Assembly: GCA_028289425.1 (NCBI GenBank)
Contig: JANQPL010000012.1
Location: 310,001-374,000, forward strand
Source: Alphaproteobacteria bacterium
GTDB lineage: Bacteria > Pseudomonadota > Alphaproteobacteria > JANQMY01
Direction: 5' to 3'
Length of the DNA stretch: 64,000 nt
This document shows, piece after piece, positions 56,425-58,751 of the stretch. Made by a program: the position numbers and the translations under genes. Position 1 is the stretch's first letter. Each line of letters opens with the position of its first letter. The notes below the pieces were generated by a model. That model ran no database searches, was not told where the DNA came from, and worked only from the letters and a program-made list of their open reading frames with translations.

Positions 56425-58044
56425 CTAGCCGAACATAATGTCGCTATAACCGCGTTCTGCGGCCTGCTTCAGCCGAGCGGCGTATTTTGGGCCGGTGCCG
56501 AAAAAGGCCTGATAGCGCACTTTGCCTACTTCCCGGCCGGCCACGTTGGAATTGTAGCCCGTGAACCAACCCTGGCTCTTTCTCAAGAGCAGCCCGTCAT
56601 AAGCTTTCTTGACTTCGTGCTGCCATTCCTGCTCGCCATCGGCCCCTGCCTCGAGGCGGGTGATGCCGTTGGCGATCGCATGCTGGAGAAGGTCCGTCAC
56701 CCAGTTAACGCCCGTTTCGATGGCGCGGGGATAGTTTGTGGAGCCCGAAGCACTTTGGGGGCCCGCAACCATCATCATGTTGGGAAAGCCTTTTGTCAGT
56801 ATACCGAGATAAGTGCTGGGTCCGTCCCGCCATTTGTCGCCCAACGACGCTCCGTCCACGCCGCGGATTTTCATTCGGTCGAACGCTCCCGTCACCGCAT
56901 CGAAACCGGTCGCGTAAACGATCACATCGAGGTCATAATGGGAATTGGCGGTCTGAATGCCCGTCGACGTAATGCGTTCAATGGGTGTTTCGGTGATGTC
57001 CACCAAATGCACATTGTCTCTATTATACGTTTCGAAGTAGTGGGTCTCGAGCGGAAGGCGTTGCATGCCAAAGCCGTGATCTTTCGGGATCAGCTTTTCG
57101 GCCACTTTGGGATCATGGACGCGCTGGCGAATACGGTTCGCCACATAGTCGGAGATTTCCTTGTTGGCCTCTTCGTCGATGAAGATCTCCCGGAAGTTTG
57201 CGGCTAGCAGGGCAAAGCCCGGCGAGGCATAAAGCTTGTCCCACAGGGCGATGCGCTCTTCTTTGGGCACATTCCAAAAACCGCGCCGGTCGGGCACATG
57301 CTCGAACCCACCGGGTGAGATGGCACAATTGGCGAAGATCTCATCATACCGGCTTCGGATCTCCGCCATTTCCTCTTCGGAAATGGGCGAGTTGTTGAGC
57401 GGCGTGCTCCAATTAGGGCGGCGCTGAAATACCGTCAGCTCACTGACTTTATCGGCAATTTCGGCAATCACCTGAATGCCTGTGGCGCCGGTGCCGATCA
57501 CGCCCACACGCTTTCCTGCGAGCGGAACGGGTTCCTTGGGCCACCAATAGGTGTGAAACGAGGGGCCCGCAAAATCGTCCATACCTTTGATACGCGGCGG
57601 CGTCGGCGCCGATAAAACGCCGATCCCGGTAATGACAAACCGGGCCGTGTATTTGTCCCCATTTTGAAGCTCGAGATGCCACTGAAGCGCGTCTTCATCC
57701 CACGTCATCGCTTCGACCCGGGCGTTGAATCGCATGTGGCTCCTCAAATCGAACTTGTCGGCCACATGGTTCAGATAGCGCAGGTTCTCCGGCTGTGATG
57801 AAAAGCGTTCCGTCCAATGCCACTCGTCCAGCAATTCTTGCGAAAAAGAATAGCCGTAGGTGTAACTTTCAGAATCGAAGCGGGCGCCGGGATAACGGTT
57901 GCGGTACCACGTGCCGCCCAGATCCTCGTCGCCCTCCAGCACGATGGAGTCGATGCCGAGATCCGTCAGCCGCTTGATCTGATAGATACCGGCGACGCCG
58001 GCGCCGATGACAATGACGTCGAAGTGTCGTTTCTCCGTTGTCAT
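56425..58044 (-). CDS. Baeyer-Villiger-type flavin monooxygenase
   Basis: A 539-residue FAD/NADPH monooxygenase that would insert oxygen next to a ketone or oxidise a heteroatom. The FAD motif is VIVIGAGVAGIYQIKRL, the Baeyer-Villiger fingerprint F-x-G-x3-H-x3-W is FAGPSFHTYWW, and the NADPH motif is VGVIGTGATGIQV. Residues GTWYRNRYPGARFDSES also match. Followed, on the same strand, by tetR upstream at 58079. Substrate unknown. Confidence 0.93.
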   Translation of the reverse strand: MTTEKRHFDVIVIGAGVAGIYQIKRLTDLGIDSIVLEGDEDLGGTWYRNRYPGARFDSESYTYGYSFSQELLDEWHWTERFSSQPENLRYLNHVADKFDLRSHMRFNARVEAMTWDEDALQWHLELQNGDKYTARFVITGIGVLSAPTPPRIKGMDDFAGPSFHTYWWPKEPVPLAGKRVGVIGTGATGIQVIAEIADKVSELTVFQRRPNWSTPLNNSPISEEEMAEIRSRYDEIFANCAISPGGFEHVPDRRGFWNVPKEERIALWDKLYASPGFALLAANFREIFIDEEANKEISDYVANRIRQRVHDPKVAEKLIPKDHGFGMQRLPLETHYFETYNRDNVHLVDITETPIERITSTGIQTANSHYDLDVIVYATGFDAVTGAFDRMKIRGVDGASLGDKWRDGPSTYLGILTKGFPNMMMVAGPQSASGSTNYPRAIETGVNWVTDLLQHAIANGITRLEAGADGEQEWQHEVKKAYDGLLLRKSQGWFTGYNSNVAGREVGKVRYQAFFGTGPKYAARLKQAAERGYSDIMFG

Positions 58045-58078: not shown

Positions 58079-58684
58079 TCAGTTGAGTTCTAGAATGCCC
58101 GCGATCGCTTCTTCAAGGGTCGTGTCCGGGTTTGCGTGCTGATACGCGCCATGCAGCCAAAGTGTCGCAAGCCCGTGAGCGGATGCCCAAAGCGACGAGG
58201 CCAGCAGATTTGGATCCGCATTGGGCTTCCAACCCTCCGCCTGCGCTTGCCTGACAAGCCAAAGAAACCTGTCCGATGCGGAACGTCTTTCGTGGCGCAG
58301 AGCTTCATTGTTCAGGTCAAGCGTGCTGGTGCGGATGACCAGCGAAAACAGCCCAGGATGTTTGAGCGCATAGTTCACATAGGCGCGGGTCGCCGTCGCA
58401 AGGGGCTCTCTCGGATCACTCCCCTGAGATGTGCGTGACACGGCCGCCGCAATTTCGGTCGCCACCGTCCTGTAGCCGACAGCCGCCACTTCGGCCTTGA
58501 GGTCATCCAGATTTTCGAAATGGCGGGCAGGGGCGCCGTGCGAAACACCGGCCCCGCGGGCCACGGCACGCAAAGTCAAGGCATCGATGCCCTGTGTTTC
58601 CAGGATGTCGAGGGCCACCGACACCAGTTTTGCACGCAACCCTCCTTGATTGGCCGGCGTTTGCGATATCAATTCGGTTTCCAT
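58079..58684 (-). CDS. TetR-family transcriptional regulator
   Basis: A 201-residue TetR repressor. The helix-turn-helix is VALDILETQGIDALTLRAVARG plus GVSHGAPARHFENLDDL; the rest is the ligand-binding domain (EIAAAVSRTSQG on). ATG 58684 is immediately at the edge of the palindromic promoter, so the messenger would be leaderless. It is divergent from the P450 gene and the BVMO gene follows 34 bases later on its strand, so it likely controls both sides. Confidence 0.92.
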   Translation of the reverse strand: METELISQTPANQGGLRAKLVSVALDILETQGIDALTLRAVARGAGVSHGAPARHFENLDDLKAEVAAVGYRTVATEIAAAVSRTSQGSDPREPLATATRAYVNYALKHPGLFSLVIRTSTLDLNNEALRHERRSASDRFLWLVRQAQAEGWKPNADPNLLASSLWASAHGLATLWLHGAYQHANPDTTLEEAIAGILELN

Positions 58685-58722
58685 GTTGACACTGTCTACA
58701 GAGGTGTGTAGACAGTGTCAAC
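58685..58722. promoter_or_regulatory. TetR operator overlapping two divergent promoters
   Basis: Perfect inverted repeat: GTTGACACTGTCTAC (58685-58699) and GTAGACAGTGTCAAC (58708-58722), 8-base centre. Each arm holds a TTGACA -35 box and a TAGACA -10 box of the opposite promoter: rightward -35 58686-58691 and -10 58709-58714, leftward -35 58721-58716 and -10 58698-58693, both with 17-base spacers. A TetR dimer bound here would block both genes. Confidence 0.85.
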
Positions 58723-58751
58723 AGTAATCACCACGAAGGATTAAGCGCAGC

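Follow-up and report, generated by a model that had tools for sequence, protein, structure and literature searches.

Two putative TetR operators form a self-mirrored element with predicted overlapping promoters between tetR and a CYP153-type P450 gene

We analysed a 64-kb stretch of alphaproteobacterial DNA (hereafter the window), in which a gene for a CYP153-type cytochrome P450 (58752..60077, + strand) and a gene for a TetR-family repressor (58079..58684, − strand, predicted to be leaderless) point away from each other. The closest PDB sequence to the P450 is CYP153A7 (3rwl, E = 4.7e-136), CYP153D17 was matched as well, and a possible ribosome-binding site of the P450 gene, GAAGGA (58735..58740, + strand), is located 11 nt before its ATG. 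The repressor carries the domains TetR_N (PF00440, E = 2.5e-7) and TetR_C_33 (PF13305, E = 4.6e-14), both over the gathering score. Downstream of tetR, at a distance of 34 nt, follows a gene for a flavin-binding Baeyer-Villiger-type monooxygenase (56425..58044, − strand). This gene order is kept at both orthologous loci, L008 and L037, and the leftward transcript probably comprises tetR together with the monooxygenase gene instead of tetR alone.

Between the divergent genes lies the inverted repeat TGTTGACACTGTCTACA-GAGGTG-TGTAGACAGTGTCAACA (58684-58723). It had originally been described as a perfect dyad of 38 bases, but turned out to span 40 bp, with 17-nt arms of perfect complementarity interrupted by a non-palindromic, asymmetric centre of 6 bp. 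The left arm, TGTTGACACTGTCTACA (58684..58700), has its core TTGACACTGTCTA at 58686-58698 and is conserved in L008 and L037; the spacer GAGGTG (58701..58706) is kept there in length and not in sequence (2/6 columns identical); the right arm, TGTAGACAGTGTCAACA (58707..58723), has its core TAGACAGTGTCAA at 58709-58721. Each of the two predicted operator arms is in itself near-palindromic (TGTWGACASTGTCWACA), with a single mismatched pair besides the centre base in its 17 bp. As each arm is nearly its own reverse complement, the two arms form an inverted and a tandem pair alike, and the preferred interpretation of the dyad is hence a pair of TetR operators centred on 58692 and 58715, i.e. 23 bp apart. 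It is the sole inverted repeat in the window whose arms are perfect over at least 12 nt and no more than 12 nt apart. No further copy was found in the window with up to three mismatches or in the whole genome with fewer than two.

The same letters can be read as promoters in both directions. Rightwards, towards the P450 gene, a predicted -35 hexamer TTGACA (58686..58691, + strand) is followed after 17 nt by a predicted -10 hexamer TAGACA (58709..58714, + strand), which would place the transcription start near 58721 (about 58719-58723). Leftwards, the predicted tetR promoter consists of TTGACA (58721-58716, − strand) and, again after 17 nt, TAGACA (58698-58693, − strand), with a start at about 58687-58684 and thus at most 3 nt from the ATG. 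The mirror-image hexamer pairs of the original prediction are therefore indeed present; the symmetry spans the hexamers, the discriminator and most of the spacer and is broken only in the central 6 nt and in the outer flanks. Compared with sigma-70-type promoters, the -35 matches at 6/6 positions and the spacing is 17 nt, whereas the -10 matches TATAAT at only 3/6 and lacks the T at -7. A scan with the sigma-70 consensus reported no promoter here. In a weight-matrix scan, TTGACA-17-TAGACA was the top-scoring pair near the dyad in both directions with 9.4 bits, above the 99th percentile of 8.7 bits for 120-nt stretches of the window, and its score was unequalled within about 120 nt; the matrix consists of approximate E. 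coli frequencies, and neither scan speaks to activity. That the -35 hexamer coincides with an operator half-site is well supported by sequence. As the same letters make up operator and promoter, TetR alone could, however, account for the conservation of the hexamers.

Close orthologues of the repressor, defined by a TetR identity of at least 68%, were found in only two further genomes of a class sample of 385, one from the same genus (G001, 68%) and one from another family (G092, 75%). The number is small because just two genomes are available for the family and order of the window's genome, and none could be added from the order of G092. Searching genome contigs with TetR yielded only relatives of 37-48% identity, which were left out of the orthologue set; on plasmids, only TetR proteins below 60% identity were found, and in a phylum sample only relatives of 36-39%. 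In the comparison of operators that the original prediction had proposed, both orthologous tetR/CYP153 loci carry the double operator and keep the arms, both hexamer pairs and the position of the tetR ATG, together with a 6-nt spacer of differing sequence. Across the three loci, 32 of the 34 arm columns are invariant, compared to 15/70 columns outside the arms (11/42 at the tetR start and 4/28 in the P450 leader; Fisher P = 4e-13). The double site, allowing up to three mismatches, occurs in 3/3 genomes with a TetR of at least 68% identity and is absent from the remaining 382 genomes of the class sample. This co-occurrence, together with the same operator class at paralogues, is an indirect hint that TetR may bind the palindrome adjoining its own gene.

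Related alphaproteobacterial TetR genes carry the same class of operator, TTGACANYGTCAA. In a survey of 30 loci of the related TetR group, about two thirds carried predicted operator sites; neighbouring sites are mostly 20-23 or 32-34 bp apart, and single sites and other spacings also occur. A paralogous TetR in the genome of the window is nearly identical in the recognition-helix region (AGVSHAAPAHHF compared to AGVSHGAPARHF), and its locus (L009; G000:C20, 1363-1430) holds three sites of the TTGACANYGTCAA type at intervals of 33 and 22 bp, one of them carrying a mismatch; similar TTGACANYGTCAA-like sites lie at about 1359-1431 of L010, the counterpart of this locus in G001. The 13-mer TWGACANTGTCWA is present in only 3-6 copies per genome in three genomes, while the reversed control gave 0. 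Of the 19 loci having both sites and an in-frame ATG, 9 show a site that begins 33-37 nt ahead of this ATG, compared to 1.8 expected, and a sliding-site control never reached 9 in 20,000 trials (P < 5e-5); this band matches the geometry of a -35 but was set after the data had been seen, and two of the loci, L062 and L069, are orthologues of each other. The peak corresponds to the -35 position expected if transcription starts at the ATG. In most such loci, TA-initial hexamers (TAGCAA, TATGAG, TATAAG, TACGGT, TACGAA, TATAGC) follow 16-17 nt behind the site, so that TAGACA at the dyad is in keeping with its relatives. We had also considered that the requirements of the promoters dictate the mismatched pair in each arm, with an outer T for the -35 and an inner A for the -10. 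This is true in 6/6 arms, but the idea was demoted since TAGACA half-sites are present in the related operators L054 and L060 away from a -10 position, so the repressor appears to tolerate the A anyway.

The original prediction also proposed that the tetR mRNA is leaderless. The tetR ATG has its A at 58684, and 8 nt separate it from the leftward -10. All three orthologous TetR proteins start with MET and diverge afterwards, M1 is the only in-frame start codon common to them, and the 25 codons after M1 of L037 hold no ATG, GTG or TTG. Moreover, no Shine-Dalgarno-like 4-mer is found at -20 to -1 of tetR in the window, L008 or L037, and such a 4-mer is absent also in 7/8 further loci (overall 10/11 aligned starts). 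A downstream start with a normal leader, named at the time as the case that would speak against the proposal, is disfavoured by the sole shared start and the lack of a Shine-Dalgarno-like site upstream of it. Conservation among the orthologues and the operator-to-ATG spacing in the related TetR genes make it well supported, at the level of sequence, that the tetR mRNA starts at its own start codon. By analogy to AcuR of R. sphaeroides, a leaderless tetR should be translated poorly, and since the message is predicted to be leaderless, protein levels of P450 and TetR need not match.

Further loci of the group are listed here as observations in their own right. At the paralogous locus L009 and its counterpart L010, the start of this second TetR gene of the genus is likewise predicted to be leaderless. 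At L060 (G092:C36, 1501-1533), tetR is divergent from a membrane protein gene, which we take to be NnrU-like, and the sites TAGACAATGTCAA and TTGACAATGTCTA are 20 bp apart; its predicted tetR promoter reads TTGACA-16-TATAAG, 5 nt before the ATG. At L054 (G092:C24, 1501-1556), TAGACAGTGTCTA and TTGACGTTGTCAA precede a gene for a predicted membrane protein and are separated by 43 bp, and at L050 (G001:C253, 490-502) one copy of TTGACATTGTCAA lies some 60 nt upstream of a putative nitroreductase-like gene. Four loci of genus g38 (L071, L078, L081, L085) show inverted pairs built as TTGACANTGACTA ... TAGTCANTGTCAA, with variants, 32-33 bp apart upstream of TetR genes, which is another self-mirrored arrangement with a longer spacer. 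Relatives of 36-39% identity in genus g266 (L039, L045-L049) have the palindrome ATCTTTACATCGTAAAGAT upstream (with one variant), which resembles the same operator class with TTTAC half-sites.

Taken together, we consider it likely that the dyad is a pair of TTGACANTGTCWA-class TetR operators, 23 bp apart, which contains two fully overlapping mirror-image sigma-70-type promoters, with both units repressed together and a leaderless tetR. The initial notion of one palindrome as operator and both promoters at once thus stands in part: an operator with two overlapping mirrored promoters is backed by conservation in the orthologues and by the spacing in related TetR genes, but two operator copies fit better than a single palindrome. 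In the proposed switch, each operator would supply the -35 of one promoter with its outer half-site and, read on the opposite strand, the -10 of the other promoter with its inner half-site. Without inducer, one TetR dimer per operator would cover hexamers of both promoters and silence the P450 gene jointly with the tetR-monooxygenase unit; a joint block by the predicted repressor binding is likely. With inducer, at a guess a hydrocarbon-derived compound, RNA polymerase would occupy one promoter or the other, never both at once. The leftward mRNA would begin at the tetR AUG or within 3 nt of it, the repressor would be made inefficiently, and the downstream monooxygenase gene would be translated from its own internal site. 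Equal expression of P450 and TetR, as first suggested, does not follow: the promoters would be mutually exclusive, the leftward transcript probably carries the monooxygenase gene too, the two sides have different flanks and 5' UTRs, and translation of leaderless messages is poor. The symmetric core promoters predict similar initiation at best. It is plausible that the symmetric element balances P450 and monooxygenase, while keeping TetR low. For a broader generalisation, the chances appear balanced to us: in a TetR group of Alphaproteobacteria, the operator half-site would be the -35 hexamer and the start codon would lie at the transcription start, and two operators of this kind, spaced by 23 bp at the CYP153 locus, would have been fused into 40 self-mirrored bp, whose inner half-sites are the -10s of mutually exclusive promoters and whose edge includes the start codon.

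But, could the dyad be an operator pair only, with the true promoters located elsewhere, for instance in the P450 leader as an alphaproteobacterial promoter that escaped recognition? TTGACA and TAGACA would then match because the half-site resembles a -35; many loci of the operator class have TTGACA without mirrored promoters, and the -10 of the dyad is weak. We nevertheless regard such hidden promoters as unlikely, given that almost nothing is conserved outside the arms between tetR and the P450 gene (the P450 leader included), that the site-to-ATG distance in related genes peaks at the value of a leaderless promoter, and that the neighbourhood offers no hexamer pair of comparable score. Very improbable, in our opinion, is an RNA hairpin acting as terminator, attenuator or processing site in a crossing transcript. 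As RNA, the dyad is predicted to fold at -29.8 kcal/mol (z = -5.7); however, a T run is missing and no terminator was found, and neither main transcript would contain the stem as the predicted start points are at the arm ends. The terminator or hairpin reading was rejected, and the occurrence of the site singly or with other spacings in related TetR genes likewise suits protein binding and not a stem.

A refinement of the operator reading itself, in which a TetR tetramer or pair of dimers binds the 40 bp as a single unit with strict spacing, is conceivable but rather doubtful. In its favour, all three orthologues have a spacer of exactly 6 nt, and relatives tend to show spacings close to two or three turns of the helix. 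Yet each arm is a near-palindrome of the size of a TetR operator, single sites and other spacings occur in related TetR genes, and the 17-nt spacing of the promoter alone could fix the spacer length here. The preferred reading of two operators with mirrored promoters, if true, would describe a very compact genetic switch with two outputs tied by symmetry, which may suit sensors for hydrocarbon oxidation. A TTGACA half-site 33-37 nt before an ATG, together with operators paired at a distance of two or three helical turns, would then provide a search rule to find leaderless autorepressed TetR genes across Alphaproteobacteria.

A literature search for the operator sequence or for a CYP153-TetR operator or switch retrieved no published account, with most subscription papers being outside its scope. 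In Tn10, tetR and tetA are divergent genes. Their operators tetO1 and tetO2 overlap the promoters of both genes and allow autorepression, tetR has two promoters, and tetPA has an about ninefold higher affinity (PMC3037858). The locus described here resembles Tn10 in that two predicted operators, conserved in this case, lie between divergent genes for a TetR repressor and its presumed target, with the promoters here being predicted. It differs as the Tn10 promoters are not mirrored, while here the same hexamers are read both ways, and as the repressor belongs to the TetR_C_33 subfamily and is encoded next to genes of oxidative enzymes. In the acuR-acuI-dddL region of R. sphaeroides, the repressor gene comes first with the enzyme genes behind, the operator overlaps the promoter, and the acuR mRNA starts exactly at the AUG (5' RACE) with no Shine-Dalgarno site; transcription of acuR is no less efficient than that of the downstream genes, but its translation is far weaker (PMC3017554). 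This region has one operator, TAATAGAC-n6-GTCTATTA, and one promoter, TTGATT/TATTAT, which is not divergent (PMC3017554). Our locus shares with it an alphaproteobacterial TetR repressor gene in first position, an enzyme gene behind and the lack of a Shine-Dalgarno site as well as, by prediction, the overlap of operator and promoter, the leaderless start and the poor translation of the repressor, but has two operators and divergent predicted promoters in place of a single operator and promoter. Leaderless repressor mRNAs are also cited for tetR of Tn1721 and lambda cI (PMC3017554, PMC4633059). For those two, the leaderless state was measured, whereas here it is predicted. Symmetric bidirectional bacterial promoters reportedly have overlapping -10 elements, unlike the present arrangement, in which the -35 of one promoter adjoins the -10 of the other within each operator copy. 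In a paper citing Warman et al. 2021, sequence symmetry at such promoters is reported to give divergent transcription. The ingredients of the proposed switch are each known elsewhere, and its compact mirror-image form is an unusual variant.
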